Origin: a virus
Length of the DNA stretch: 31,699 nt
Reading direction: 5' to 3' (one strand)
IMG/VR virus record: IMGVR_UViG_3300044858_004797
Span: 1 to 31,699 of that record
In this document: positions 4,805 to 28,415 of the stretch, in pieces
Position numbering within the stretch: position 1 is the first letter of the stretch
How the letters are laid out: each line of letters starts with the position of its first letter
The notes under the pieces: model-generated
Seen by the model: the letters and a program-made list of their open reading frames with translations, nothing else
The model's database searches: none
What the model was told of the DNA's origin: nothing
Translations under genes and position numbers: made by a program

Positions 4805-6426
4805 TAGTCAAGCTCCCCAAACCGATCTATCAGGCTTCGGTTTGTTAGATTCGCACGCTGCCGTGCTCCGTATGTGTAGAGATCCGTCCTTGCATCACTC
4901 CACTCTATGTTGATGGAAGCAGGATCTCCGGCAACCTCCGCCGCCGTCTGCGCCTTGAACCTGCGCCACTCCTTGTTTGTCGCCTCACGCGGGGGATTAT
5001 AAGCCTTCCCAATCTCATCCCAAGACGAGCGCCACTCGCTTGCCTGATCGGTAATGTTCTTGTACTCCGCGTCCCACACCTCCCGTGTTAACCGAGCGCT
5101 CTCCTCGTCGCGAACACGGATTTGTTCTGCGCTTAGAGACGGAGGCTGCTGCGGATCTGCCGGAGGTGTTTCCACCGGAGGCGTCTCCACTTTCTTCGGG
5201 ACAAGCCACGACCCATCCCGCATAATCTTGGAGACTTCAGCAGGCTCAAGGCCGTGAAACTGGAGCGACTCGCGCATCATAATATCGCCAGCCGTCTTGC
5301 TTTGGGCGCGGATGTCCATCACGCCAATCGTGTTTGCGAAGCGGTTGTAGTCCTTCGCCGCGATAGCGTCCTTTGCCCCTTCAATATTCGCATTGAAGGC
5401 TTCGTTTGCAGCACCACGCCCCGCGTTAACGACCCATGGCGTCGCATGGAGTCCGAAGTATCCGCCAAGGAGATACTCGTACACCTGATTAGCCGTGTCA
5501 TCCCCACGCATAGTAGCGGGAAGCCCCATCATCACCCCGCCCGCAAACGTGCGGAGAAGGTGCTCGGCACTTGACTGCTTCCCCTCAAGGATCAGCTTGG
5601 ACGATACTCGCCCCACATTCCCCAAGAGCCCGAACGCCCCGCCCATGACCGCGCCACCGGCAAAACCGCCGATTGCCGAGTCCACGCGCTCGCCCCACTT
5701 CATCGGGTTGATTCCGGCACCGGCGATAGATGACGCAAGCCCAAGATGAAGCGCCTGCTGCCCCACATCGGTAAGGATTCCGAAGCGCTCCGCGCTCGAG
5801 AACGCCTTCGTGTTCTTCAAGAGTCCAACAGCGGCACGCCCGCCGTTCGCGATAAAGGGAACGCCCGTAAGCTTTCCAAGCCCTTTCATTGCAAGCGTTG
5901 CCCCGCCAAGAGGAATAGATTTCCCCGCAAGAACGCCGCCAAGAAGATCCCCGTACCCCCTGAGCCCGACAACGCGCTCCGCTTCTTTGATAAGAGCGGT
6001 AGTTGACGCCTTTGCGGCAAGAGCCGCAGCTTCTGTTGTGACGCCCTTCTTGACCGCTGTCGCGACAATCTTTCCTGCGGCCCGCTTCTTTAGGGCCGCC
6101 TTGCCGTAAAGGAGCGCAGCCTTAGCCGGAGCGGCAGCAAGGTCAGTAGGATCAGGGACGAACCCGATGAAGCCCCATAACTGACCGATGCCCCGAAGGA
6201 TCTCTGCCGCCTTGTTCTTGGGAGCGTCTCCAACGGATATCGTCGTGTATCCTTCGAAGAAGCCCTTAGGGAGCGCGGAAACAGCAGACCATATCTCGTC
6301 GAACATCGTGTCTTCGGGAGCGGCAGCTACCCGCTGCATAGCCGCAAGCCCCTGCCCTGTGACATCTCCTTCACGAGCAAGGGCCTGCTGGGATGCGTTA
6401 AGAAACTCTTGTCGGAGCGCTTCCAT
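4804..6426 (-). CDS. Internal virion protein with Gly/Ala-rich membrane segments (540 aa)
   Basis: A 540-residue protein rich in Ala and Gly. Between about residues 150 and 330 it has several glycine-zipper-like hydrophobic stretches (such as GGFAGGAVMGGAFGLLGNVG and AGGVMMGLPATM) that could cross or line a membrane. A proline-rich linker (PPVETPPADPQQPPS) near residue 420 separates this from a charged helical C-terminal domain. This architecture fits ejection proteins that form a conduit for DNA. It starts with ATG 6426, 34 bases after the previous stop. The assignment is from position and composition; sequence family not recognised. Confidence 0.65.
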   Translation of the reverse strand: MEALRQEFLNASQQALAREGDVTGQGLAAMQRVAAAPEDTMFDEIWSAVSALPKGFFEGYTTISVGDAPKNKAAEILRGIGQLWGFIGFVPDPTDLAAAPAKAALLYGKAALKKRAAGKIVATAVKKGVTTEAAALAAKASTTALIKEAERVVGLRGYGDLLGGVLAGKSIPLGGATLAMKGLGKLTGVPFIANGGRAAVGLLKNTKAFSSAERFGILTDVGQQALHLGLASSIAGAGINPMKWGERVDSAIGGFAGGAVMGGAFGLLGNVGRVSSKLILEGKQSSAEHLLRTFAGGVMMGLPATMRGDDTANQVYEYLLGGYFGLHATPWVVNAGRGAANEAFNANIEGAKDAIAAKDYNRFANTIGVMDIRAQSKTAGDIMMRESLQFHGLEPAEVSKIMRDGSWLVPKKVETPPVETPPADPQQPPSLSAEQIRVRDEESARLTREVWDAEYKNITDQASEWRSSWDEIGKAYNPPREATNKEWRRFKAQTAAEVAGDPASINIEWSDARTDLYTYGARQRANLTNRSLIDRFGELD

Positions 6427-6460
6427 TCAAGCCCCTATTGGACGGTCGTGTTCGCCATTG

Positions 6461-7288
6461 TCACTCGGGCAGCTTTACCATGGGGTCGGAGCCGAGACCA
6501 GCCCCCCTAAGTCCAAGCCTGAAAAGCTCTCCACTGGCGGCATTTTCCCTATTTTGCTTATCCAGCCTTTCCGCAATGTACTCAAGGGCGTCCGCTGTGG
6601 TGCGGGGGTCAACACCACCAAGCCAATCAAGCGGGCTCCCCCACCCAAATCCCTCCGCTTGCTTCCGCGCCTTTTGGGCAAAACCTCGGATTTCGTCGGC
6701 TGTCGCATACCTGGGAAGCTTGTCATCTCCCTCTGGGTCGATAAGATCGAAAGTGTCGCGGATTGGTGTCGGGATTTCAGCCTTCCCATTCTTGTCCATG
6801 GAAAAAACAGCAGTGGCGGAAAGAGATCCGTTAGGAGATCTCCCCCCGCTCATCCCCGGAAGCCCGAGCCAGCTAAGAAGCGCGTCTTGTTTCCTCCGCG
6901 CATTTATTGCCTCTTCGATCTGAGCCTCTATAAGCTTGATCTGTGCCGTGTTTCCAGTTGCTTGGGCCGCTGCCAGCGCCCTCGCCGCCTCAAGCTCGTT
7001 ATTGGACAGGGCGATAGCCTGATCTTTTGTGATAGTGGCAAGTTCGCGGGAGTTGGCGAGTGTAGACGCGTGCTCCATCGCTCGCGCCGAGAGCAGCTCC
7101 TCGTTTTGCCCCTTCATGTACTCGCGCTGAAGCGCGTTCTCGCTCGCCTGATAAGCCCGCTCTGCCGCGATCTCCTGCGACCGAAACGCCCGCTCACGCC
7201 TCGCCGCAGCGTCGGCAAGGATCTGACTTGAAAGGACGCCAAGCGCATCGGCAAGAGGATTGCGCGGCTCCCGAATGATAATAGCCAT
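6461..7288 (-). CDS. Coiled-coil internal virion protein (275 aa)
   Basis: The 275-residue product has a long Ala/Glu/Arg-rich helical region from about residue 15 to 150 (for example AAARRERAFRSQEIAAERAY), typical of a coiled coil. After it come a Gly/Ser turn region and a shorter helical C-terminus. It has no membrane segment or enzyme motif. It sits between two membrane-type internal proteins in the leftward run and begins 11 bases after the 234-residue gene, with an AAGGAGATAAAAG ribosome site. Most likely an ejection-complex or internal core component. Function inferred from context only. Confidence 0.65.
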   Translation of the reverse strand: MAIIIREPRNPLADALGVLSSQILADAAARRERAFRSQEIAAERAYQASENALQREYMKGQNEELLSARAMEHASTLANSRELATITKDQAIALSNNELEAARALAAAQATGNTAQIKLIEAQIEEAINARRKQDALLSWLGLPGMSGGRSPNGSLSATAVFSMDKNGKAEIPTPIRDTFDLIDPEGDDKLPRYATADEIRGFAQKARKQAEGFGWGSPLDWLGGVDPRTTADALEYIAERLDKQNRENAASGELFRLGLRGAGLGSDPMVKLPE

Positions 7289-7299
7289 CTTTTATCTCC

Positions 7300-8004
7300 T
7301 TATCGGGTGAAGAGTGGGCCAGATCCGGCGGTATACGGATATGGGTTCGCGAAGTTTTGTTGCTGGTACATGCTTCCCATATCAAAAGACCCGCCTCCAC
7401 CGCCCATCGGAACTCCTGTCGCAACAGACGCCGCCTGCTTTGACGCATCCTGCCAACTGCTATTCATTGAGCCAAAGGCAGAGAAGGCCATGGGTATGAA
7501 CGACTCCAGCACTGTCGGTTCGTTCGCCTTCATGTTCGCAAGAGAGATCTGATCCTCTTCCCGCTGGAACTGCATGGGGAGTAGATTACCAGCAAGCTGC
7601 GCTTCCATAGAACCAGCGGATTGGATAAGGTCACCAGCACCAGCTTCCCGCGCAGAAGCAGCACGGCGTGTCGCAATGTTCTGTGCGGAAACAGGGTCAA
7701 CACCGGCGGAAATAAGCTCTGCCGCCGTTCGGCGTCCAAGCGAGTCAGCGCTTGCCCCCACACTGCCAAGCTTTTCCTGCCACCCGCCATAGCTGCGCAT
7801 ATATTCACGGGCACGCTCTGCCGCGTTGAAGTCGGGGATTTTCTGTTCGTCTGACCCACTGAAGCCCCCGGCAATGCCGCCAAGGATGGCCCCGATAGCA
7901 GCGCCCGGCAGCGCTCCAATTCCGCCAGCAGACGCCCCCATCATTCCGCCAGTAGCGGCACCGCCAGCGGCCCCTTGCCCGGCATTTGACCAATTAAACC
8001 CCAT
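7300..8004 (-). CDS. Gly-rich internal virion protein, first of the ejection module (234 aa)
   Basis: The N-terminal 50 residues form a strikingly Gly/Ala-rich hydrophobic stretch (GAAGGAATGGMMGASAGG, then LPGAAIGAILGGIAGGF) that looks like a glycine-zipper membrane hairpin. Residues 60-165 are predicted helical, and the C-terminus is Gly/Tyr/Gln-rich and probably flexible. Small Gly-rich proteins of this kind open the internal-protein block in many podoviruses. It begins after a 60-base gap holding an inverted repeat, unlike the overlapping genes around it, so it may head its own transcript. Its stop is 11 bases ahead of the next start. Confidence 0.65.
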   Translation of the reverse strand: MGFNWSNAGQGAAGGAATGGMMGASAGGIGALPGAAIGAILGGIAGGFSGSDEQKIPDFNAAERAREYMRSYGGWQEKLGSVGASADSLGRRTAAELISAGVDPVSAQNIATRRAASAREAGAGDLIQSAGSMEAQLAGNLLPMQFQREEDQISLANMKANEPTVLESFIPMAFSAFGSMNSSWQDASKQAASVATGVPMGGGGGSFDMGSMYQQQNFANPYPYTAGSGPLFTR

Positions 8005-8025
8005 GGGATGCCCCTCTCTTTCGTA

Positions 8026-8044
8026 TTGGCAAATATATTGCCAA
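8026..8044. repeat. Inverted repeat ahead of the ejection module
   Basis: TTGGCAA (8026-8032) and TTGCCAA (8038-8044) are perfect inverted arms around ATATA, in the gap between the fibre-like gene (ends 8065) and the ejection genes (start 8004). There is no U-run on either strand, so a classic terminator is unlikely. It could be an mRNA-processing hairpin, a weak attenuator or a protein-binding site; on the minus strand it also contains the TATA-rich sequence TATATTT. Confidence 0.5.
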
Positions 8045-8064
8045 CAACTGTTTTCTAATGCAGG

Positions 8065-9111
8065 CTACTTCGTTGTGATCTGTCGAGACCCAACCGTGTC
8101 GCACTCGATGTGCATCTGAAGCATCGTGCAAAACACATCGTTCGTGGGCGGAGGATAGGTCACAACATTTGATGTAGCAATGCGTGTTAACTTCGGCCAA
8201 ATGTGAGTAGCAAGACCGAATCCGGCAAGGGACACGGTTTCGATATTGTAGAGCAAGTGCGTGTTGTTGGGCGTCCCCGCAGGGATCTTCAAGTCAAGAG
8301 ATGTCGATGTCTTAAGAGTAGACACCGCGCTTCCCGCGTTTGCCACAAGCCAGTCCACCTTAAACCGCAAGTAGCTATCCGCCGCGTATCCAGACGACTT
8401 CCCACTCAACACATGCACATGCCAAGTGCCGCTTGTCCCAAGCTTCCACGAATGGGGAAGCTCTTCACCCTCGCACTGGTTAGTATCGTTTATCTGCCAA
8501 AACGGAGCAGAGATAACACCGCCGACATCTATTGTCTGAAGGCTTGGGATGCCGACGCCAACCGTTCTTACAATAATCGGGAAGTTCAGGTCTACCCAAT
8601 AAGTAGCGTCTCCGTTAAAGACAAGCGTCCCGTCTGCTTCGAATCCTGCGTAGTTCGCGACACCGCCAAACGCCGCAGTATCCGCACTTACCGTCCCGAA
8701 GTCGGCAGACATTGTGCCGCCCGTTATGTCGTCTTCGACAAGGATGTTGCCGTTTGCATCACGCGAGTATAGCTGTGCACGAGCCCCGTCGCCCTTGATA
8801 AACACATCGCGCCCGATGTACACCGTCCCCTTGGACGACTTCACCTCTTCGGCTTCAATTACCTTCACATTCTTGATCGCCATCCCGCGACCGTCGATGT
8901 CGCGCCGGAGGGGGGTAGACTTTTCACCGTCATCAATATCAACCTGGATCGATCCGCGCCCGTCCTTCGTCTTCACGGACAAACGGCTTTGATCCCTGTC
9001 GAACTGGACAGCGCGTGTCGAAGCGACCTCCCGCCGAAGCCGCTCGATCTCATCACGCATTTCACGCACAACCTTATCGACCTCAAGGTTACCTGTCCGT
9101 GTGTCACGCAT
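8065..9111 (-). CDS. Fibre-like virion protein with coiled-coil N-terminus (348 aa)
   Basis: Residues about 8-35 form a coiled coil (VDKVVREMRDEIERLRREVA), followed by a repetitive beta-strand shaft (GRGSIQVDIDDGEKS, SKGTVYIGRDVFIKGDGA). The C-terminal half contains WVDLNFPI, GEELPHSWKLGTSGTWHVHV and YLRFKVDWLVAN. That pattern, with an ELPHSWK...WHVHV core, is one I associate with head- or tail-fibre tip domains of tailed phages. I infer a trimeric fibre or collar protein that may contact the host. Its ATG overlaps the stop of the 1054-residue tail gene (TAATG), so both are probably made in step. Confidence 0.65.
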   Translation of the reverse strand: MRDTRTGNLEVDKVVREMRDEIERLRREVASTRAVQFDRDQSRLSVKTKDGRGSIQVDIDDGEKSTPLRRDIDGRGMAIKNVKVIEAEEVKSSKGTVYIGRDVFIKGDGARAQLYSRDANGNILVEDDITGGTMSADFGTVSADTAAFGGVANYAGFEADGTLVFNGDATYWVDLNFPIIVRTVGVGIPSLQTIDVGGVISAPFWQINDTNQCEGEELPHSWKLGTSGTWHVHVLSGKSSGYAADSYLRFKVDWLVANAGSAVSTLKTSTSLDLKIPAGTPNNTHLLYNIETVSLAGFGLATHIWPKLTRIATSNVVTYPPPTNDVFCTMLQMHIECDTVGSRQITTK

Positions 9112-12100
9112 TAACGCACCCCACCAAAGGCTCGGTAGATAACACCGATAGAGTCCACACGCTGCGTCCCCTCAAGCTGCAACCCAACCTGAAGCCCACG
9201 GTGCCGGAGCGCGTCCATCTCCACAACATACATCCCTGACTCGTGGGAGTTTGTCGTTGTCAAGAGATTGCCGTCCTGATCTCGCGCAGAAAAGACGGAC
9301 GCTGTATTCGTCCCCTGATAAGGGATGCGGATTTTGTACCACTTCTTGTCTATTGTGTTCATCCCAGCGTCAAGCACACGGCTGACCCAGGAGATCCCCC
9401 TTGACCCCGTCCCGCCAAGGTAGTCGATAAGGTACTCGCCGTTGCAAACATACATCTCCCCGTCGTCCCCGTAAAGGTTATCGGTGATGGGGTTAGAGGA
9501 GATAATGTGCCCCCACAGATCCCACCGCCCCTTCTGAAGGTTGTAAGACCAAGCGCGAAGGTCGCCGTTAGCTTTCTTGAACACGGCGATAAAGGAGATG
9601 CGCTTTGCGTCGAAGAAGCAGACAGGCGCGAAGGTCATGTCCCGTTCGTTCCACCCGATAAGGCGTGCACTGTCGCTTGTAAGGATGCTCGTGCCGATAG
9701 GCTCAAGCCCCTGCCCCTTGTCCAAGTAAAGGTTTGTCGTCCCCGCGACGAACATGCCGTACTCGGAAACGCAAACAGACTTCGGGCCTTGGCATCCAAC
9801 CCCGTCGAACTCGTCCTCGATAAGAGGGCCGCCAGGGCTGATCCTCCAGAACTTGGAATTTGCAAACCCGTAAAACCGCCCGCGCCAATAAGCAAGGGCG
9901 TTCGGCACTTCGGAGAAGATGACAAACTTGTTGTAAAGGTCGAACTGATCAAACCTGCCTACCTCGGAGATAAACCCGTAACTCGACGCGTCCTTGATCG
10001 ACCCCACGCCCCCGCAGTTTGCAACAAGCAATTGTCCGCCACCCTTGCAGGAAAGCCCGTAATACGGAGTACACTCCGACTCGGTATGCGGGTACCCCGT
10101 AAGCTCTTCAAAGGTTTCAGACGGGGAGTTTGTGTCCTTGATCGTGTGGTAGTAGAAATCGGTAGAGAACCCCTCGAGCTTCTTTGTCTTTGTAAGTGTC
10201 GTGATGTCTATGCGCCCAATGACACGCGGAAGCGAGTCCTCTTGCGTAGACACAAGCCCATCGTAGTAAGATCTGAACACGGTAAGACCGGTTATGCGCG
10301 GGTTAGGGATCTCTGTCGAAATGAAATAGAAATCAACAAACACCGCATTCCCGTCTTCGGACGGTGTGTGTTCGCAAAGCGCTTCGGAAAGCGGGCCAAT
10401 TTGGTACCCGTCGTATTCGTACGCAACAAAGAACCGATAAGTTCTCGTCGCCCGCATCCCGTCTGCTCTTACATTCGTGTCTCTTGGGACAACGATAAAA
10501 TCTGCAAGCGTGACATAGGACACCGTGCTGTAAACGCCGGTATCAAGAAGCGGAACGGTTGCATACCCATAGCCGCCGCTCTCGATAAAGAGCGCCAAAA
10601 TGCTTTGGTATCCGCTGCTCAGTGTGATGTGCGGAATGCCAATTGAAACATCGTCTTTCTGGTAGGTATGCGAAGACCCATCTTCAAGATATGTGAGGTT
10701 ACCAGCATAGAAGTTGTCATTCGAAGTAAGCGTAAGCTTCCCGTCGTCAAACAGATATAGAGTAGTAGAAGACCCGTTTCCAATCGCTATATTGATAAAG
10801 TAGTCAGCGCCCGTCTCCTCTTGGACAAGAAGCGGCTGGAAGCCGGTGATACTCTTGTCGATGAAAGAGGTCTCATCATCCGAGTCGTTTGTTAATCGCA
10901 CCCCGCGAATGTCAATCTTGCTTGTGCCAGATTCGGTGTCTATCGGGTGCGCACCTGACCCCGCGGTCATGTCCGGAGCAATGATGTATACGCACAATCC
11001 AACCCTATCCCACTGGTTCCCACCCGCCGTTGCCGTCGTGATCTTTGCCCCAACCGTCCCCGACTTGAAGGAGCAAAACCAGCAAATGGTATCCGAATTG
11101 ACAGCCTGAAGCATGAGCGGCTTCATGAAAGTGATCAGATCGAAATAATGGTAAGAGTCGTCTACGGCGTCTTCCAAGTAGAAAACCCCCGTAAGCGCCC
11201 CACTACCATCTGTTCCCTTCAGGTTGATCGTCATGTTCTGCGTTTCGATATTCTGACCGTCCGACGGGACAGCAAGAGTCCGGAACAGAAGTGTGCCATA
11301 TCCACACGACAAGTCCGAATCAGGAGGGCGGACATCTGTCGGGTCTTGACTGCGCTTCTTTGTGATCTTCACCCCGCCCGCAAGGTTGTGGATGGCGAAC
11401 CAAATGTACTTCGTTCCACCTCCACCTTGAATCATGTCCGTGCAGGTGTAAGATCCTGGATCTTCAAGCCCTTGTCCGCCCCAAGACTTAATCGTTATCT
11501 TCTTGACAATGGCAAACACGCCTGCGGTATAGCTGACCTCGTATAGTGTTCCACAGGTCGTCTCGTCATTGTCGTACACCCACATGAAAGTTGTATTTGC
11601 CGCAGTTGTTTCCGATTTACAAATTGCCTGAATGCGGGTGAACGACGGGATGTCCGAATCGGATGTCCCGTAAATAGCCCCAGTGTTTTCCGTCACAACA
11701 ATGATCTTCGTCCCGCCGTATTCAACACCAAGATACCGCGACTGGAAACTATGATGAACGGCCTTGTAAATACCGTTCGTCTCGAGCGAGTAGGAATCAA
11801 GGGCCGCATCGTACATAGTCATGTTCGCGGGGGGGTCAACATTAAACTGCTTCTGCTGGACGAAGCCGATCCACTTCGGGGGCTGATCCGATCCCATCCC
11901 CGCGTGGACGCTGTGCCCGTCTGAGGCAAAAGCAACACGGTCACTTGTCGTCGTAACACTCTGCGGAATTGTAAACGGCCCCGTGCGTGTTCCGTTAAAA
12001 TCGTTGTAATACGCAAACGGCTGAGCTTCCGTCGGATCGTAGAACAAAAGTGCCTTCTGCTTCTCGGACTCGTTCTGTTCCACCCACTCCATCTGCGTTC

Positions 12101-12275
12101 CGCCAAACCCGCTAAGAACCGTGGTGTCGGTCGGAATGCCTGACAGCTTTCCGCCTTCCGCAACAGGATCGATATTGAGCGAGTACACCGCCGCATCGAG
12201 AGGAATATCCGTCTCGGACGGAGCACACACAATGCCGTTCTGGAACCCACGGATCTCAACAAGTTGCTTCGGCAT
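9111..12275 (-). CDS. Large tail protein, probable tail hub/nozzle (1054 aa)
   Basis: A 1054-residue, almost entirely beta-rich protein. It opens with a conserved-looking start (VEIRGFQNGIVCAPSETDIP) and ends in repeated Tyr/Trp/Gly-rich strands (ALAYWRGRFYGFANSKFWRI, then YGMFVAGTTNLYLDKG) that suggest a beta-propeller. Podoviruses carry such a protein below the portal and adaptor as the tail nozzle or stabilising protein (T7 gp12 or P22 gp10 type), and this is the best fit by size, fold and place. No enzyme motif is visible. It overlaps the M15 peptidase gene upstream and the fibre gene downstream. The specific family is not confirmed. Confidence 0.65.
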   Translation of the reverse strand: MPKQLVEIRGFQNGIVCAPSETDIPLDAAVYSLNIDPVAEGGKLSGIPTDTTVLSGFGGTQMEWVEQNESEKQKALLFYDPTEAQPFAYYNDFNGTRTGPFTIPQSVTTTSDRVAFASDGHSVHAGMGSDQPPKWIGFVQQKQFNVDPPANMTMYDAALDSYSLETNGIYKAVHHSFQSRYLGVEYGGTKIIVVTENTGAIYGTSDSDIPSFTRIQAICKSETTAANTTFMWVYDNDETTCGTLYEVSYTAGVFAIVKKITIKSWGGQGLEDPGSYTCTDMIQGGGGTKYIWFAIHNLAGGVKITKKRSQDPTDVRPPDSDLSCGYGTLLFRTLAVPSDGQNIETQNMTINLKGTDGSGALTGVFYLEDAVDDSYHYFDLITFMKPLMLQAVNSDTICWFCSFKSGTVGAKITTATAGGNQWDRVGLCVYIIAPDMTAGSGAHPIDTESGTSKIDIRGVRLTNDSDDETSFIDKSITGFQPLLVQEETGADYFINIAIGNGSSTTLYLFDDGKLTLTSNDNFYAGNLTYLEDGSSHTYQKDDVSIGIPHITLSSGYQSILALFIESGGYGYATVPLLDTGVYSTVSYVTLADFIVVPRDTNVRADGMRATRTYRFFVAYEYDGYQIGPLSEALCEHTPSEDGNAVFVDFYFISTEIPNPRITGLTVFRSYYDGLVSTQEDSLPRVIGRIDITTLTKTKKLEGFSTDFYYHTIKDTNSPSETFEELTGYPHTESECTPYYGLSCKGGGQLLVANCGGVGSIKDASSYGFISEVGRFDQFDLYNKFVIFSEVPNALAYWRGRFYGFANSKFWRISPGGPLIEDEFDGVGCQGPKSVCVSEYGMFVAGTTNLYLDKGQGLEPIGTSILTSDSARLIGWNERDMTFAPVCFFDAKRISFIAVFKKANGDLRAWSYNLQKGRWDLWGHIISSNPITDNLYGDDGEMYVCNGEYLIDYLGGTGSRGISWVSRVLDAGMNTIDKKWYKIRIPYQGTNTASVFSARDQDGNLLTTTNSHESGMYVVEMDALRHRGLQVGLQLEGTQRVDSIGVIYRAFGGVR

Positions 12276-13446: not shown

Positions 13447-14004
13447 CTACTGGTTGATCTCAAAGTACATCTTGTCTCGCGTCGCATCGGGAAGAAGCAT
13501 GTAGTCCTCGGAATAATAGGCCCACATCTCTTCGTCTGATCTGTTTCGCAGTTTCGGGACATGAAACCATGTCTCTGGATCGTACTCGTCTGAAGCATCG
13601 TATGTGCCCGGGATGCCGTCAAGGAAGGCGTAATACCCGTCCCAATCCTTGAAGTTGGTAGACTGAGCCAACACCTTCCAGAACATCTTCTTCCTCGTGG
13701 CCCAAGGGAGCTGGAAGTAAGCCTTGCGGAAAATGTAAAGCTGAAGCTCGTCGGACGGGTTGAGCGGCTTGGGAATCGGATGCCATGTCGCATCATCAAG
13801 GGAGTCCGCCACCGTGCCACCGTGACTCGCAAGGCTGTCCAGCCACCGATAGTGACCGTAATAAGCAGCCATGCCCGAAGACACGCCCTCAACCTTCCAT
13901 AGCGCCTTCTGCGAAGCCTTCGCAAGTTTGTAGTACTCGTCCATCCAAATCTTGAACTGCGCCATGTCGGTAGAGTTTACCGGCTTCATGATCTGATACC
14001 AGTC
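13447..14004 (-). repeat. 72-aa tandem repeat at the C-terminus of the beta-helix protein
   Basis: Residues 662-733, 734-805 and 806-846 align without gaps at a 72-residue period. Conserved features are a Trp at position 2 (DWYQIMKPVN, TWHPIPKPLN, TWFHVPKLRN), an S-[TD]-[DM] start to a helix, a Tyr-rich helix, and a [LK]-x-[LKP]-x-[AT]-[ST]-x-K-[AKM] turn followed by [LMY]-[WF]. Copies one and two also share a second half ending in a YY..LD pattern. The last copy stops after its first half at the end of the protein. Confidence 0.8.
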
Positions 14005-15987
14005 GTTCTTGTCTTCTGTGGAGTCCTGTGATGCGGGCCAGCTATTGTTTGTCACATTATAAAGAACCCACCAAGGGCCAGGGATGTTCGCATAGCGCAT
14101 TCCAATTGTCGGGACACCGTAATCAGCAGGGGAAACGCCCACTCCAATCGTGCCAAACGCAGAGTTTGTCATTCCGGTAAGGCCGACCTTTCCGCCCCAC
14201 TTCATATTCCATGAGGTGGAGTCGGTGAAGGATGTCGCCGCCATTGAATCGCCGTCGAAATCGAACCGCGTCAAATAACGCAACGCCCAACAGTTATTCC
14301 CTTCACTCCATCCACTCCCATTTCCACTGCTGCTCATGAAGACATAATCAGCGGCACCTCTGACGGTGTTGTTGTGGAACCGGTTACCTTTCGCCTGCAC
14401 GCCTTCCCACGCCCCATCGTCTAACACGTAAGACGTCCCGGCGTCTGTTACTGTCACATCGTTGTTGTAAAATTCGCAAGAATCGCCGACCGCGAAATAT
14501 ACTCGGCTCACGTCCCCAGTTGACCCGTGATCGATGAAAGTGTTGTTGTAATAGTGGTTCGCTCGGCCCTTGTCCACGATGCCGTAATGAATCGAGCTGG
14601 TCGCCAACTGCTCGAAATAATTGTCGTGCGCCTCGACGTGAGACGCGCCATGCGCGTTATCTGCTGCACGCCATGACGCTGCTGGGGTGTCGTCGTTATG
14701 AATGACGATGTGACTTGTGCCGTTCGAGATGATTCTGTTATTGGTGAGCGTCACTGAATCTGGGCATAGGGTGAGCATCGCACTCACCCCAGAAGTTGGG
14801 CTCCAATTCGTGTGGTCGATGACGTTAGAATCGAAAGTCCATCGCGACCCAAGTGATGCCGCAAGCGTGTCTGCGGCAGTGTTCGCGATGAATGCGATGT
14901 TCGTTGCGTAGAGCGAGTTCGAAGATATTGTGCAGTCGCTCCCGTAGCTGTAAGCGTAAATGAAGTAATCGATTTCGGTTGCGTTGACAACATTAAAGGT
15001 GTTGCCAGTTATGTGCCATGTCGGCCCCGCGTCTTTATCGACTGCATATATCATTGCAGCGCCACTCGCAACAGGTTTCGTCTTGGAAAGCGTGATCGTG
15101 TTGTTGGTGAACCAGACTGTTTTGGGGCGTGCCGCCGTTGTCGCGTCAGCGAAATAAAACAGGCAGGACTTCCCGGCACTCGCTAAGGCCCAGTATCTGA
15201 TCGTGCACGAATTTATTCTTACAAGACGGGCGTCGTTGAAATTAATGTCGGAATAAGTTGCGGAGTCGGCTTGAAATGTGCAGGTCTGAAAACTGATAGA
15301 GTCGACGTCACAGGATGCTGTGAAAGACAGCAGGGGGCCGTTGTCAACACTACCTCCCGTGAATGTGCACCCGCTGAACATTATTTTGCCAGAGGGATAT
15401 GCCGCCCACCCGATTTGGTCGCAGGTGTTGATCGTGCAGTTCGAGAAGGTTTGATCCGCTGCAAGAGATGTTCCGCTGAAAAAATAAATCTCTCCCAAGT
15501 CCCCAGTGGATGTTGTGCACGAGTCTAAGGTGCAGTTCGTCATTGCTAGTGGATTGGCGTCGAAACCGATTCCCCACCCTGCGACTGCCACTTCCGTCCC
15601 ACTGCCTGGGTGCTTAAATGTGCAGCCCGTGGCGTTAAACGCAAGCGAACTCTTGTTAACGTACACGGCTGCCGTCAGCCGCAGATTTGTCATCGTCAGC
15701 GTGCCCGTCCCGCTGAAAGTAACCTTGTACGCCGTGACTGTCGTTGTCAGGTTCGTGGCACCGACAATAACGAGAGCCTTGTTTGAGCACGTATAGGCCG
15801 ATGCAAGCGCCTCAGAAGACGCGCCAACCTGGGTCAGCGTGTCCCCAGACGATGCCGCAGTAAGAGCGGTCGTGAATGTTGCGTATGTCCCACCCGTGCC
15901 GAAGGTGCGGGTGGTAGCCTGCGCGCCCCCCGCAAACAGTGACAACAAGAAGAAAATCGTGATAAAGCTTGTGGCAAGTTTTCGCAT
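13447..15987 (-). CDS. Secreted right-handed beta-helix protein with C-terminal 72-aa repeats (846 aa)
   Basis: I start at ATG 15987 because a GGAGGACGCC ribosome site precedes it and because the first 24 residues form a textbook Sec signal peptide: MRK, a hydrophobic core (SFITIFFLLSLFAGG) and an AQA cleavage site. A longer frame reaching 16239 overlaps the upstream gene and would bury the signal. Residues about 40-600 are repetitive short strands with stacked Asn/Thr/Cys (for example TLTNNRIISNGTSHIVIHND), typical of a pectate-lyase-like right-handed beta helix. Residues 662-846 are a 72-residue repeat (2.6 copies). A secreted beta-helix protein could bind or cut surface polysaccharide. An export signal on a tailspike-type protein is unusual; no catalytic pair is identifiable by eye. 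Confidence 0.75.
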   Translation of the reverse strand: MRKLATSFITIFFLLSLFAGGAQATTRTFGTGGTYATFTTALTAASSGDTLTQVGASSEALASAYTCSNKALVIVGATNLTTTVTAYKVTFSGTGTLTMTNLRLTAAVYVNKSSLAFNATGCTFKHPGSGTEVAVAGWGIGFDANPLAMTNCTLDSCTTSTGDLGEIYFFSGTSLAADQTFSNCTINTCDQIGWAAYPSGKIMFSGCTFTGGSVDNGPLLSFTASCDVDSISFQTCTFQADSATYSDINFNDARLVRINSCTIRYWALASAGKSCLFYFADATTAARPKTVWFTNNTITLSKTKPVASGAAMIYAVDKDAGPTWHITGNTFNVVNATEIDYFIYAYSYGSDCTISSNSLYATNIAFIANTAADTLAASLGSRWTFDSNVIDHTNWSPTSGVSAMLTLCPDSVTLTNNRIISNGTSHIVIHNDDTPAASWRAADNAHGASHVEAHDNYFEQLATSSIHYGIVDKGRANHYYNNTFIDHGSTGDVSRVYFAVGDSCEFYNNDVTVTDAGTSYVLDDGAWEGVQAKGNRFHNNTVRGAADYVFMSSSGNGSGWSEGNNCWALRYLTRFDFDGDSMAATSFTDSTSWNMKWGGKVGLTGMTNSAFGTIGVGVSPADYGVPTIGMRYANIPGPWWVLYNVTNNSWPASQDSTEDKNDWYQIMKPVNSTDMAQFKIWMDEYYKLAKASQKALWKVEGVSSGMAAYYGHYRWLDSLASHGGTVADSLDDATWHPIPKPLNPSDELQLYIFRKAYFQLPWATRKKMFWKVLAQSTNFKDWDGYYAFLDGIPGTYDASDEYDPETWFHVPKLRNRSDEEMWAYYSEDYMLLPDATRDKMYFEINQ

Positions 15988-15997
15988 GGCGTCCTCC

Positions 15998-16555
15998 TTA
16001 CTTCTTGTACGCCAAGACCTTGCCGGACGCAAGCTGAATCTTGTAGAACGCACCTTTAATCGATTGACCGGCAACAAGCGAGACACTGCCGAAGGTTCCG
16101 CCATCGATAGCCCCGCCGTTTGCAGCGGAGTCGATGACAAATTCTCCGATAGGCGTAACGCCCGTAAGAATCTGAGCACCGGTATGGTCAATCGGGTAGA
16201 ATGTTTCGGCAACATCCGGCAGAATCTCGTTAAGGACATGGACTTTCATCCATCCCGCAGCGTCCCCGCCGGCAAAAGATCCGCCCGTGACCGTGATTTC
16301 GTTAACCGCAATCACAGCACCCGTCGTCCCGCCAACAAAAGAACACCCGACAGCCACCGTGCCAGATCCAGCATTGAATCCGATACCGTTTCCATACAAA
16401 GAATCCGCAAGCGCGGCGGTAAACTCGGACGCTTCAAGAGCGTAGACCTCCGAGTAATCGCCGTAATGCGGATTCGTGTCGTCAATCACAATAGCCCCGC
16501 CTTGTCCGGCCATAATGTTGACGGCTTCTTGAACTGTGTGGTCGTGAATTCCCAT
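15998..16555 (-). CDS. Gly-rich beta-structured virion protein, possible fibre part (185 aa)
   Basis: A 185-residue protein dominated by Gly, Ala, Val, Thr and Ser in short strands (for example GCSFVGGTTGAVIAV, then VTGGSFAGGDAAGW). The ending, AGQSIKGAFYKIQLASGKVLAYKK, resembles the C-terminus of small phage structural proteins in which a beta barrel is followed by a basic tail. It lies between the fibre-like 312-residue gene and the secreted beta-helix gene and starts after a 73-base gap with an AAAGGGGAT site. Probably a minor tail or head-surface protein. Family not recognised. Confidence 0.55.
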   Translation of the reverse strand: MGIHDHTVQEAVNIMAGQGGAIVIDDTNPHYGDYSEVYALEASEFTAALADSLYGNGIGFNAGSGTVAVGCSFVGGTTGAVIAVNEITVTGGSFAGGDAAGWMKVHVLNEILPDVAETFYPIDHTGAQILTGVTPIGEFVIDSAANGGAIDGGTFGSVSLVAGQSIKGAFYKIQLASGKVLAYKK

Positions 16556-23778: not shown

Positions 23779-24912
23779 TCAAACAGATTCTATCGGCAAC
23801 TGCGCACTACTGATTCTCGCCTGAGCAATCTTCAGATATTCCTCATCAAGTTCTATCCCGACAAAGTGGAAGCCTTCTATCATTGCCGCCTTTCCCGTGC
23901 TCCCACTTCCCATGAATGGGTCGAGAATAATGCCGCTTGGCGGTGTGACAAGACGGCACAGGTAGCGCATAAGGTCGGTAGGCTTTACGGTGGGGTGATG
24001 GTTGCGTGCCATCTTTGTAAAGCGGTCGGAAACTGGGTCGCCTTCCGCATCGTTGCCGTTGTTCATCTTCACGCGAATCGTCGGAAGCCCCTCGCACCCC
24101 TCATCCCGGTCCCGCTTGCTCGCCTTGGAGCAGTAAAAGAAGCGGGAGGCATCACCGAGCAGCGCGCAGGGCTCATCACTTCCGTCGTGAATCAAGTTTG
24201 CAGGCCATCTGCCATTTGGATTTGCAAAATCAGTCAAGCCAATACCAGTTGCGAATGACGATGCGTTTTTTTTATCTTTATTGCCATTACAATATGCACC
24301 ACCACAAAGATTATCGCTTGTTTCAATCCTACAATCGTTTATGTTTATTCCACCTGTTCCATGCTTTAACACATTTTCAGCAACAGTTCCAATCAACGGT
24401 TTTCTTGCTACAGTGATTGGTTCAAGAGCAGGTTTTAATGCAGTACCCCATCCATGCCATAGCGAAGCAGGTAGCGAAGCAGGTAGCGAAGCAGGCCGTG
24501 GTTTTCCTCCGTCAAACATTGATGATGTTCCTTGCTTCTTATAATGCGTTATTTCTCTTTTGTCATCAACACCAAGATGCTTGTCAATTGCTTTACTTAC
24601 ATCGTGAGATTTTGGGAAACCATTGCCATACACCCATGCAATCATATCCCTGATTTCAAATCCAGCATCCTCGATGTTTACAGCCATGCGGTGCTGTGTG
24701 CGAGTTCCGGCAAACGCCAACAGGTGCCCTCCGGGTTTCAAGACGCGCAGACATTCCGACCAGATTTCTTCGCTTGGAACATCGCAGTCCCATTTCTTCC
24801 CCATGAAGGACAACCCATAAGGCGGGTCTGTCACGATAGAGTCTATCGAGTTGTCCGGCATTGCACGAAGAATGTCCAAACAGTTCCCGTGGTGAAGGGT
24901 GAAAGAACTCAT
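23779..24912 (-). CDS. DNA adenine or N4-cytosine methyltransferase, beta class (377 aa)
   Basis: The protein transfers a methyl group from S-adenosylmethionine to an amino group in DNA. DPPY (residues 29-32, catalytic motif IV) comes early and the AdoMet-binding motif FMGSGSTG (333-340) comes late, within ILDPFMGSGSTGKAAM; this order defines the beta class. The middle (about 95-250) holds the target-recognition region, including GWGTALKPALEPITVARKPL and GTVAENVLKHGTGGININD, as in many phage enzymes. A PASL triplet (140-151) is encoded by three copies of a 12-bp repeat. Its ATG overlaps the TerL stop (ATGA). No restriction partner is seen; it may protect phage DNA or alter packaging. Target site unknown. 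Confidence 0.9.
   Translation of the reverse strand: MSSFTLHHGNCLDILRAMPDNSIDSIVTDPPYGLSFMGKKWDCDVPSEEIWSECLRVLKPGGHLLAFAGTRTQHRMAVNIEDAGFEIRDMIAWVYGNGFPKSHDVSKAIDKHLGVDDKREITHYKKQGTSSMFDGGKPRPASLPASLPASLWHGWGTALKPALEPITVARKPLIGTVAENVLKHGTGGININDCRIETSDNLCGGAYCNGNKDKKNASSFATGIGLTDFANPNGRWPANLIHDGSDEPCALLGDASRFFYCSKASKRDRDEGCEGLPTIRVKMNNGNDAEGDPVSDRFTKMARNHHPTVKPTDLMRYLCRLVTPPSGIILDPFMGSGSTGKAAMIEGFHFVGIELDEEYLKIAQARISSAQLPIESV
24461..24496. repeat. 12-bp tandem repeat (x3) inside the methyltransferase gene
   Basis: AGCGAAGCAGGT is repeated three times head to tail (last base differs). It encodes PASL x3 on the minus strand. Copy-number change by slippage would keep the frame and alter length by four residues. 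It lies at the edge of a stretch that looks richer in A+T than the rest of the gene. Confidence 0.85.
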
Positions 24913-26489
24913 CTATTACTCATCCATGTTGTTTCGACAATATCGTCCAAGCCAATCGTGCAAACGCGTCGCGTCTGTTCTTGCACCTTCTCAAGCGAAT
25001 CTTGCCAGTCCACATCGCAGGGCCACGCATCTTTAAGTGCGTAGTATTGTGCGTCAAGCATATCCTCGTGCTGCGAGTCCTTGTCCACAACATACATCGT
25101 CGCCTGTGAGATAAAGTCTTCGTCTTCACCTTCCCGTACATACATCATCCTGTTCTTGTAGCGCCAAAGATCCGACAAAATGCGTTCGCTTTTCTTCGAT
25201 CTTGGCTGGTTCTTCTTGTCGAGCCCCGCAACCCATACCCCTTCTTCATTCATTTTGTGGCGCAAGTAAGAACGAATCGTTTCCTGCGCCTGAACCGTCT
25301 CGATATTCCCAGACAAAGGATTGAAGTACACGGCTTGCTTGAAGAACTCGTCTGCGGCTGTAAGTGCGTCAACGCGTTTGTTGAACTTCCAAAGCAAATA
25401 GCAGTTTTTACGCGCATCCATCCCCCAAAATTCTATCGCGGTGGCGTCTGCACGGTTTGATTCAGACGATGCAGGGTCATATCCCCAGAAAATGTTGATC
25501 GGAATGATCTTGTTCGACAAGACAACAGCGCCAGATTGCTTCTTTGCCTCGTCTAACCGGATGACAAACTTGCCAGGAGTAACCTGGATGCACTCTCCTT
25601 TGTACTTTCTGAAGTATTCGCTCTTGAACGGCTGGTTGTCTCCCGTTCTAAACTCATTCTGGTAGTTCATCCACCAAATGTGACCGCGCCCGGCGACCTC
25701 CATTCGGTTCTTTTCTTCCATGAGCTTGTGAAAAGACCACCATTCGGGCCAAAGGACGGGAACTTCAGACGATCCATCCCAGTTTGGGATTGCTTGGTAC
25801 CAGCGCACCGTCCATCCAGGAAGGCGTCTGAGCCTGTCCACAAGGCATCCTTCGTTAATCATAGTACCAATCACGACAATGCGGCAGAACTGCGGGTCAC
25901 GAGCCGCCATAAGGGCTTTCTCGAACCATTCGTAGTTCTTGTCCATCGCCTCTATCGTTCCGGCGTTTCCGTCGTCCTCGGGATCGTCCAAGATGAACAT
26001 GGTCGGGCGCTGCTGAAACCGCTTCAGTCCGTGGATCTGCGATCCCACGCCGAGTGCCGTGATAACCGTGTTGTTCTTGAGGATGATTTCGTTTTCAGAC
26101 CACTTTTGCGCCGTCACCTCGCCCCAATGCCCGAAGTATTCGATCAATCGTTCGTTGTTATCAAGGTGATATTTGATTGTTGTAAGCAGAGACTTCGTGT
26201 GCGATGTTGTCTTGGACACCAGCACAATGAATTCGGCCTTCTTCCCCTGCATTGCGCTATAAAGCGCACGGTGGATTGGCTGGATTTCGGCAGTAAGCGA
26301 AGTTTTGGCGTGACCTCGTGGGGCGACGATAAGCAGGTTCTCAAGAGAGTCGTTATTCAGGTCTGAATAAAGTTGCCCGTGGAATTTAGGCGACTTTACA
26401 CGCAAAGTTGCAGGGAAACATTCACGGGCAAAGGCTCCCATGTCTGCGCCCATCTCGATGATGCGTTGGGATTTCTTACTCGGAGCCAT
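24909..26489 (-). CDS. terL: Terminase large subunit (TerL, 526 aa)
   Basis: The packaging ATPase-nuclease. Residues 56-63, APRGHAKT, form the Walker A loop (variant ending in KT), and residues 164-173, MFILDDPEDD, form Walker B with the catalytic acidic pair. IVVIGT (204-209) is the usual coupling motif. The C-terminal nuclease begins with FWGYDPASSESNRADATAIE, in which Asp338 is the first metal ligand; a later acidic cluster (HEDMLDAQYYALKDAWP) near the end fits the last ligand. It overlaps the upstream TerS-like gene by 14 bases and the methyltransferase by ATGA. Length is normal for TerL. Confidence 0.9.
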   Translation of the reverse strand: MAPSKKSQRIIEMGADMGAFARECFPATLRVKSPKFHGQLYSDLNNDSLENLLIVAPRGHAKTSLTAEIQPIHRALYSAMQGKKAEFIVLVSKTTSHTKSLLTTIKYHLDNNERLIEYFGHWGEVTAQKWSENEIILKNNTVITALGVGSQIHGLKRFQQRPTMFILDDPEDDGNAGTIEAMDKNYEWFEKALMAARDPQFCRIVVIGTMINEGCLVDRLRRLPGWTVRWYQAIPNWDGSSEVPVLWPEWWSFHKLMEEKNRMEVAGRGHIWWMNYQNEFRTGDNQPFKSEYFRKYKGECIQVTPGKFVIRLDEAKKQSGAVVLSNKIIPINIFWGYDPASSESNRADATAIEFWGMDARKNCYLLWKFNKRVDALTAADEFFKQAVYFNPLSGNIETVQAQETIRSYLRHKMNEEGVWVAGLDKKNQPRSKKSERILSDLWRYKNRMMYVREGEDEDFISQATMYVVDKDSQHEDMLDAQYYALKDAWPCDVDWQDSLEKVQEQTRRVCTIGLDDIVETTWMSNR

Positions 26490-27822
26490 CGCTCACGACA
26501 TCTGCTGGGTGGATAATGCCGACGCATTCCAACTCATCAGTATCACTTACAAGTTCAGCCTTCTTCCGCTCAATTTCGGATGCGATAAGCGTCTGTTCCC
26601 CGCTTGTAAGCTCAAGCCTGCGCTCGGTTGTCACCATTCGGTGCTCAGGTTTCATCGCAAGCAGGTCGATAAGACGATCCGTGTTCTCCTGAAGGGCGTG
26701 AACAAGCCTTGGGCTGATGTTCCCCTTGTCGTCCTGAATGTTCTCCAGCACCATTTCGTTAATCCTGATCAATGTGTTGAGCACATACTGATCTGGATCG
26801 CCTTCAATGCCAAGACGATTCATAATGCTCGTCATGGCTTTGCGTGCGCGGTCTTCTACCATACCCAAAAACCTCGGCCCGTTTAGGAAACTGGAAAAGT
26901 CCTTGCTATACTTCGATCCTGCAAGGCCGTAAGACAGCCCCGTTGCAAGATCCCTATCCCCTGTCGCCACCATGACAGATGTTAGCACGGCTTCGCGGAT
27001 TGCGCCGATGGACGGAACAACATACCTGCCGATGCGCTCGATCTCCTCGTCCCTACCGATAGCCGGAATTGCGCAGAAAAGACGCTTTGCAGAACAGTCC
27101 GTGTAGAGGAACTGCTTTCCCCTGCGGTGCCGCGTCCACACCCCCGCCCCGAACATGGTGGAAATGAACAGATGCGAGCTTCCTTCGCGCCGGAACATCC
27201 CGGGCCACCACCGTGCAACGACGGAAACGACAAACCCGTCGTCTGTCAGGACATAGGGGTTCTGGCTTTTCGTCCACCAACACGGTTCGTAGCTGAAGTT
27301 GTACTTGTCGGCAATGTGTTTGGGGATTGCGAAGTAAACGACCCCTGCAAGCACGCGCCAGTTTGCGTTTGCAGCAACAAGATCCTCGACCATTGCGTGC
27401 GGAATGTCTTCGTGCAGGGATAGCGTCCCTTGGAAGTCGCGGGTTCCAGGTTCCCCTAACCCGACACTGAGCTTCCGAAGCTTCCACGCGCTTGTCGGGT
27501 AATAGATTGCGCCGTACCCAAGCCGTTCAAGCTTTGACAGATCTTCAAGCGTAACGGTTTCGTCGAACTTGCCGTCTTTGAAACGGGAGGGATCGATGTC
27601 CAGCTCTTCGCACAGCCGCTTGAAATCGACATCCCCGTAAAGGCGGATATACCTTTCGGCATATTCGTTGCAATCTGCAATAGCGGCCTTAAGCTTTTCC
27701 TTAAGGTGTGGGATGATTGTTGCCGTCTTGTTGTGAAACCTTTCCCCGAACGGCTTGCGCCGAGCCCGCTTAAGGTCTTCGTCCTTTATTCGGGCTTTAC
27801 TCCTTCGCTTTTCTTCTACCAT
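26476..27822 (-). CDS. Unusual large protein with TerS-like C-terminus, possible small terminase (448 aa)
   Basis: Located directly before TerL, where the small terminase is expected, but 448 residues long (TerS is usually 100-250). The C-terminal 155 residues show the 'YG.AGS.YSKDF..FL..P.FL...' pattern followed by a long helix and coiled segment (DPDQYVLNTLIRINEMVLEN) that looks like small-terminase architecture: a DNA-binding-type helical part and an oligomerising helix. The N-terminal 290 residues have a basic start (EEKRRSKARIKDEDLKRARR) and an aromatic-rich mixed alpha/beta domain (for example YNFSYEPCWWTKSQNPYVLT, then VVARWWPGMFRREG) that I do not recognise. A TerS fused to an extra domain is my best reading. 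Confidence 0.55.
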   Translation of the reverse strand: MVEEKRRSKARIKDEDLKRARRKPFGERFHNKTATIIPHLKEKLKAAIADCNEYAERYIRLYGDVDFKRLCEELDIDPSRFKDGKFDETVTLEDLSKLERLGYGAIYYPTSAWKLRKLSVGLGEPGTRDFQGTLSLHEDIPHAMVEDLVAANANWRVLAGVVYFAIPKHIADKYNFSYEPCWWTKSQNPYVLTDDGFVVSVVARWWPGMFRREGSSHLFISTMFGAGVWTRHRRGKQFLYTDCSAKRLFCAIPAIGRDEEIERIGRYVVPSIGAIREAVLTSVMVATGDRDLATGLSYGLAGSKYSKDFSSFLNGPRFLGMVEDRARKAMTSIMNRLGIEGDPDQYVLNTLIRINEMVLENIQDDKGNISPRLVHALQENTDRLIDLLAMKPEHRMVTTERRLELTSGEQTLIASEIERKKAELVSDTDELECVGIIHPADVVSDGSE

Positions 27823-27992
27823 GCTTCGTCCGTAGAGGAGTAGTAGTCGTCCCTGTCGAAGTAGTCGCGCAGCTCTCCGATGCTGACTTCCTGGATCTCG
27901 TGTGTGTCCACATTCCTAAGTTTGACAAAACGGGGGCCGTCTTCGATTGCCTCCCACACACTACCGTCCGTATCGGTGAATCTCTCTCCCAT
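27816..27992 (-). CDS. Small acidic protein ahead of the terminase genes (58 aa)
   Basis: ATG 27992 to TAG 27816, 58 residues, starting MGERFTDTDGSVWEAIEDGP and ending in YFDRDDYYSSTDEAW. It is clearly acidic, with a beta-like start and a helical, Asp/Tyr-rich end, and overlaps the next gene by seven bases (ATGGTAG). The ribosome site is only modest (CAGGTGCC). The clean frame, coupling and place as first protein gene of the leftward late run support it. No family recognised; an acidic DNA mimic or a packaging partner is speculative. Confidence 0.65.
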   Translation of the reverse strand: MGERFTDTDGSVWEAIEDGPRFVKLRNVDTHEIQEVSIGELRDYFDRDDYYSSTDEAW

Positions 27993-28051: not shown

Positions 28052-28123
28052 AGCCGCCCACGGGATTTGAACCCGCACCCCGCCGCTTACAAAGCAGCAG
28101 CTCTACCGTTGAGCTAAAGCGGC
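28052..28123 (-). tRNA. tRNA-Thr (anticodon UGU)
   Basis: The minus strand folds into a full cloverleaf of 72 bases. The acceptor GCCGCTT pairs with GGGCGGC (two G-U pairs), the D stem is GCTC/GAGC, and the anticodon stem GCTGC/GCGGC holds loop TTTGTAA (anticodon TGT). The variable loop is GGGGT, and the T arm GCGGG-TTCAAAT-CCCGT is canonical. The discriminator is T and CCA is not encoded. It decodes ACA (and possibly other ACN). It lies at the head of the leftward run. Confidence 0.95.
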
Positions 28124-28170: not shown

Positions 28171-28199
28171 TTGACAATGTTGGAAAGTTGTTGTATCTT
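28171..28199 (+). promoter_or_regulatory. Strong sigma70-like promoter for rightward genes
   Basis: TTGACA (28171-28176), a 17-base spacer and TATCTT (28194-28199) lie just ahead of the HTH gene (ATG 28227, GGAGG at 28216-28220). The -35 is perfect, the spacing ideal, and the -10 has four of six consensus bases. The 14-mer ACAATGTTGGAAAG overlapping the -35 recurs at 29210. Confidence 0.8.
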
Positions 28200-28226
28200 G
28201 TTGGTGGAAAATTTTGGAGGATTGAC

Positions 28227-28415
28227 ATGACAGGATTGGCAGGTGTGTGGTACAATGTGTCGGAGGCAGCCGGGTATCTTGGGATTTCTCGGCAGACCTT
28301 TTCGGCATGGGTTCGCGAGGGCAGGATTCCTGCTCCTGATTTTCGCAAAAATGCGAGAATCTTGTACTGGACGCGGGAAACTTTAGACGCCGTAAAAAAG
28401 AGAGAGGTGAAGTAA
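28227..28415 (+). CDS. Helix-turn-helix DNA-binding protein, excisionase/MerR-like (62 aa)
   Basis: ATG 28227 is chosen over a TTG at 28188 because GGAGG lies six bases upstream and the earlier start falls in the promoter. The 62-residue product reads VWYNVSEAAGYLGISRQTFS, then AWVREGRIPAP: 'VSEAA.YLGIS..T...W...G.IP.P' is the winged helix-turn-helix of the excisionase/AlpA/MerR-type small regulators. The rest is a basic wing (FRKNARILYWTRETLDAVKK). It may regulate the nearby early genes or act at the recombination/replication region. It is the first rightward gene and is coupled to the next by TAATG. Confidence 0.8.
   Translation: MTGLAGVWYNVSEAAGYLGISRQTFSAWVREGRIPAPDFRKNARILYWTRETLDAVKKREVK

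Follow-up and report, generated by a model that had tools for sequence, protein, structure and literature searches.

The window, which spans 31,699 bases and is a linear virus record from IMG/VR, carries a block of late genes on the minus strand, which consists, in order, of a 58-aa ORF, a 448-aa gene, the gene for the large terminase TerL, a DNA methyltransferase gene, the gene for a P22-type portal, a 309-aa gene and the gene for an SU10-type major capsid protein. The 448-aa ORF lies at exactly 26476-27822 on the minus strand, which the original prediction had left unstated, and TerL starts inside its end with an overlap of 14 bp; the 448-aa gene thus occupies the classical slot of the small terminase TerS, as the original prediction had stated. 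The genes and protein regions at this locus are the following:

27816-27992, minus strand: 58-aa ORF overlapping the start of the putative TerS gene; the relative L086 has a 56-aa ORF at the equivalent place
26476-27822, minus strand: probable extended TerS gene with an ATG start, directly upstream of TerL, encoding 448 aa (50.9 kDa)
27391-27822, minus strand: residues 1-144, lineage-specific extension, coding to judge from codon use and unmatched by the family profile
27058-27390, minus strand: residues 145-255, family-wide beta-rich domain with a W...YVLTDDGFV motif, assigned from the profile score, the fold of residues 1-100 of the relative L080 and mapping
26815-27057, minus strand: residues 256-336, predicted HTH DNA-binding region, aligned to L080 residues 101-173 and deduced from the relatives
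26650-26814, minus strand: residues 337-391, helical hairpin that is predicted to serve as the core of oligomerisation, aligned to L080 residues 174-215
26479-26649, minus strand: residues 392-448, acidic C-terminal tail (net charge about -8), predicted to be flexible and TerL-facing; the L080 counterpart is disordered in the model
24909-26489, minus strand: TerL, the large terminase and partner gene (phrog_38, 2.7e-62; alignment with relatives, A2)

Several other features of the region were recorded. The 58-aa ORF and its counterpart in L086 (122-292, plus strand) share a similar VW...IEDG string. A tRNA-Thr with the anticodon TGT is encoded at 28052-28123 on the minus strand, directly upstream of the late operon and at the switch between two gene blocks. 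The DNA methyltransferase (23779-24912, minus strand; PF01555, 3.2e-33) is located between TerL and the portal, and its codon use differs from that of the neighbouring genes. In the related contigs L086, L002, L003, L004 and L005, the portal follows TerL without an intervening methyltransferase. Because of this absence and the deviating codon use, the methyltransferase looks like an insertion in the lineage of the window. The late block also contains large minus-strand ORFs of 930 aa (13447-16239), 1054 aa (9111-12275) and 902 aa (2096-4804). The 930-aa ORF possesses a right-handed beta-helix region (PF13229, 3.4e-10), and such regions are frequent in tail spikes; family searches with the 1054-aa and 902-aa ORFs gave no match.

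Searches with the 448-aa protein itself returned nothing significant in Pfam, PHROGs, NCBIfam, the PDB, phage and plasmid records, viral contigs and bacterial genomes. None of the TerS models tried matches the window protein, including PF03592 (Terminase_2), whose curated cut-off of 26.1 bits was not reached, and a structure predicted from the single sequence had a pLDDT of only 37. The N-terminal part had been described as aromatic-rich and as matching nothing recognisable. The first description is accurate, since F, W and Y together make up 11.4% of residues 1-290 versus 3.8% of residues 291-448; the second holds for direct searches of the three family libraries, the PDB and the records of phages and plasmids, but was overturned once remote relatives had been gathered by synteny.

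These relatives were collected through the capsid and TerL genes and then by iterated profiles. A search with the capsid protein led to four related contigs, each of which encodes a protein of 289 to 357 aa before TerL, and alignments of TerL and capsid yielded about 160 further loci. Iterated profiles recovered at least 111 related ORFs, with 89 distinct sequences of at least 180 aa; the members are mostly 250 to 270 aa long, with a median of 260 aa among the complete ones. All 111 related ORFs are located upstream of a TerL, and the TerL loci that lack such an ORF all end at a contig edge no more than 700 bp upstream of TerL. The nearest relative of the window is L086, whose capsid is 57% identical and whose corresponding product has 396 aa; BLASTP aligned the window protein to it over residues 127-429 (E=4e-17, 24% identity). 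Relatives in isolates or genomes were not found, either with the capsid in bacterial genomes or with the L005 and L080 TerS proteins in phage records. Two irregularities were noted among the related contigs. In L005, an ORF at 9310-9942 (plus strand) contains a string resembling LAGLIDADG (WLAGIIEGEGNLDL) and may encode a homing endonuclease of an intron or intein; it is located just before a capsid ORF in which the match starts only at capsid residue 55. In L003, the portal seems to be divided into two plus-strand ORFs (5992-7116 and 7148-8182); a frameshift, a genuine division of the gene or faulty assembly could account for this.

The window protein is recognised by family profiles from which it was left out. 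A profile that was started from L005 alone and never included the window, L002 or L004 found it with E=5.6e-4, and a leave-one-out profile of all members except the window found it with E=2.1e-9, whereas the next best non-member among 3351 ORFs reached E=1.1. Using the latter profile, residues 145-255 alone scored 20.3 bits (best of 200 shuffles, 1.2), residues 256-448 alone also scored 20.3 bits (best of 200 shuffles, 5.1) and residues 337-448 alone scored 15.6 bits, while residues 1-144 did not score; the HTH stretch (256-345), taken alone, gave no score against the family profile. The original prediction had proposed profile searches of residues 1-290 and 290-448 and had confined the TerS-like part to the latter. 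Both a part of the N-terminal region (145-255) and the C-terminal region do score, the first 144 residues remain silent, and the start of the TerS-like part is placed around residue 256 instead of 290.

The assignment of this family to the small terminases rests on the agreement of sequence, structure and gene order, although the single scores are modest. PF03592 is by far the commonest family detected among the relatives, with sub-threshold matches in 27 of 63 (best 0.0011), and phrog_51, a terminase small subunit family, matches four of the 63; wherever a position was given, the match lies in the C-terminal half, and wherever a score was given, it falls short of the curated cut-off. When the family profile was compared with the PDB, the best match was the Pam5 small terminase (E=0.021), which covered profile positions 145-218, the HTH-to-hairpin region. 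L080, a typical relative, was modelled with AlphaFold2 using an alignment of 63 rows. The model has a mean pLDDT of 84.8 and consists of a beta-rich domain (around residues 1-100), helices between residues 103 and 211, the last two of which (178-195 and 198-211) form the hairpin, and a disordered tail. Residues 109-170 of the model superpose on the DNA-binding domain of SF6 TerS (4zc3) over 57 of 57 residues with an rmsd of 2.2 and a Z-score of 6.2; comparison with the phage protein 2ao9 gave a Z-score of 7.3 over 105 residues, and comparison with the SPP1-like TerS 3zqq a Z-score of 4.7. All of these Z-scores are below 8, and middling values of this kind arise by chance among helical bundles. 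In a Foldseek search of the PDB, E=0.001 was not surpassed by any match; among the closest neighbours of the L080 model in BFVD, many are named 'Terminase small subunit'. The structural reading of the window protein is based on relatives that are 17 to 25% identical to it, and by this homology it is predicted to contain the helical hairpin after the HTH. Taken together, the 448-aa protein is considered to be the small terminase of this phage, in an extended form whose predicted body of HTH, hairpin and tail follows N-terminal modules, with a probability of roughly 0.87.

The additional N-terminal sequence postulated by the original prediction is present, and it is absent from characterised TerS proteins. 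It does not form a single new domain of 290 residues, since residues 145-255 correspond to the beta domain of the family, residues 256-290 to the helical part of TerS and residues 1-144 to a lineage-specific piece. A nuclease function, which had also been suggested, finds no backing, as neither the whole protein nor residues 1-130 matched a nuclease family. The layout with a beta domain is common to about 100 uncultivated phage contigs and is not unique to the window. The W...YVLTDDGFV motif of the window protein matches the conserved residues W33 and D45-D46 of the family (L080 numbering). The beta domain has weak fold matches to eIF5A, EF-P and chromo-barrels, which are suggestive of an SH3-like barrel without identifying the domain; barrels that bind proteins and barrels that bind nucleic acids both occur among its weak matches. 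Most relatives have a basic beta domain (median net charge +3, pI 8.9), with net charges that range from -5 to +9, and the corresponding region of the window protein (163-268) has a net charge of +5.

The extension, in contrast, was found only in the window protein and in L086. The extension of L086 matches the transcriptional repressor family phrog_4583 (4.3e-6, profile positions 4-75 of 81), the only one of the two repressor-type profiles phrog_4583 and PF01381 to give a match there, and is likely of repressor-type origin, whereas phrog_4583, HTH_3/PF01381 and other HTH profiles do not match the extension of the window protein. The two extensions share a similar string, GKFDETVTLEDLSKLERLGYGAI in the window against GRVGITLEDIAAFEAVTGYPLI in L086; the similarity between them was equalled by 36 of 1000 shuffles. 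Since shuffled sequences score equally this often and no HTH profile detects the window extension, a repressor-type origin is only possible for the latter. A second copy of a strand-helix-strand unit in the extensions was also considered, and the test did not support it.

It could be argued that the extension is not translated at all and that the true start is an internal ATG at residue 144, giving a product of about 305 aa. Such a start would bring the protein close to the length of the longer relatives (289-357 aa), the family profile stops short of residues 1-144, and a Shine-Dalgarno sequence is visible neither at codon 1 nor at codon 144. However, the in-frame codon signal of residues 1-145 is equal to that of the remainder of the gene (0.108 versus 0.125), while the other two forward frames are negative, and the extension is very likely translated on the basis of this signal. 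Moreover, the 58-aa ORF ends at the codon-1 ATG, the same overlap is found in L086 with its 396-aa product, and with a start at residue 144 about 430 bp of an otherwise tightly packed operon would be left empty, all of which makes the internal start highly improbable. Equally little credence is given to the proposal that the TerS slot here holds some other protein of packaging or regulation that binds DNA, with TerS encoded elsewhere, for example by the small HTH ORF at 28188-28415 or in a portion of the genome that is absent from the record. The window is a linear record that may represent a genome fragment, and the example of E217 shows that a TerS gene can be far from TerL (PMC9611059). In addition, the 75-aa ORF at 28188-28415 (plus strand) weakly matches phrog_57, a terminase small subunit family (1.1e-5, and 9.5e-7 in a separate search). 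This ORF, however, encodes a generic HTH_17/excisionase-type domain (PF12728, 2.5e-10; TIGR01764, 4.3e-9) on the opposite strand, and phrog_57 gives matches in 14 of 14 control genomes; of the four TerS profiles that were run on the record, only one gave a match, and it did so at this generic HTH ORF. The 448-aa protein, in contrast, shows homology to the family, shares its slot with all relatives and has a relative whose fold gives TerS-type matches.

A more serious alternative accepts the protein as TerS and concerns only its N-terminal pieces: the beta domain and the extension might act off the DNA, by binding TerL, the portal or another phage protein, or might merely stabilise the ring. 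In the beta domain, W33, D45, D46 and G74 (L080 numbering) are conserved and seem to serve the structure and not the binding of DNA, the net charge of the domain varies between relatives, and its weak fold matches include protein-binding barrels. On the other hand, the domain is basic in most relatives and in the window, it directly precedes the HTH, and the L086 extension resembles a repressor family. A role away from DNA is possible, although it is not the preferred explanation. Since the beta-domain region is basic and the extension of L086 has a repressor-type HTH, a DNA-reading role of the N-terminal part is plausible as far as the sequences go. The most far-reaching form of this idea, a two-headed TerS in which the HTH ring and the beta domain are joined by a second, repressor-derived DNA-reading head, is unlikely.

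The position of the gene, its homology to the family, the predicted TerS-like fold of a typical member and the coding-like character of the extension were observed; ring formation, the binding of DNA and TerL and the role of both N-terminal pieces are extrapolated in the following model of how the extended TerS might work. In line with what is established for TerS proteins (PMC9611059), the HTH domain (around residues 256-336) would be the part that binds the viral DNA at its packaging site, the helical hairpin (around 337-391) would bring the subunits together in a ring, and the acidic flexible tail (392-448) would engage TerL. The mostly basic beta domain (around 145-255) would, in its most likely role, supplement the HTH with further DNA contact or with specificity for the packaging site, and the extension (1-144), possibly derived from a repressor-type HTH, might widen DNA recognition or permit autoregulation. 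If the protein were indeed two-headed, the packaging site would be read by two different DNA-binding modules, or the protein would also repress its own late operon. How TerS chooses the viral genome from cellular DNA has been described as unsettled (PMC9611059), and a conserved domain beside the HTH is a natural construct to locate the source of sequence specificity. Furthermore, the family furnishes a TerS for uncultivated phages with an SU10-type capsid, a large group whose TerS goes unannotated by the standard libraries that were used.

The protomers of characterised TerS proteins have a mass of 15 to 21 kDa and carry the HTH at the N-terminus (PMC9611059); the window protein, with 50.9 kDa, is two to three times as large as the small terminases examined to date and is outside this class. 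A limited search of titles and abstracts in the open-access literature gave no matching description of an extended or fused TerS. The window protein resembles the SPP1/SF6-type TerS proteins (3zqq, 4zc3) in the position of its gene just upstream of TerL and in the predicted order of HTH, hairpin and C-terminal tail; however, it is about 2.5 to 3 times larger, has a beta domain and an extension before the HTH and shows no sequence match to them over curated cut-offs. The Pam5 small terminase (PDB 21di) comprises 134 aa in the entry, and its aligned part lacks a counterpart of the beta domain or the extension. The phrog_4583 repressor is matched by the extension of L086, but not detectably by the window protein. 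The predicted structure of the BFVD entry A0A516LAI0 (249 aa) aligns with L080 over its full length (E 9.7e-16), and the combination of a beta domain with a TerS layout is thus already present, unnamed, in the databases, although this entry, judged from its length, is without the 144-residue extension of the window protein. As a TerS, the window protein belongs to a known kind, whose domain layout and size are extended here beyond the characterised examples.
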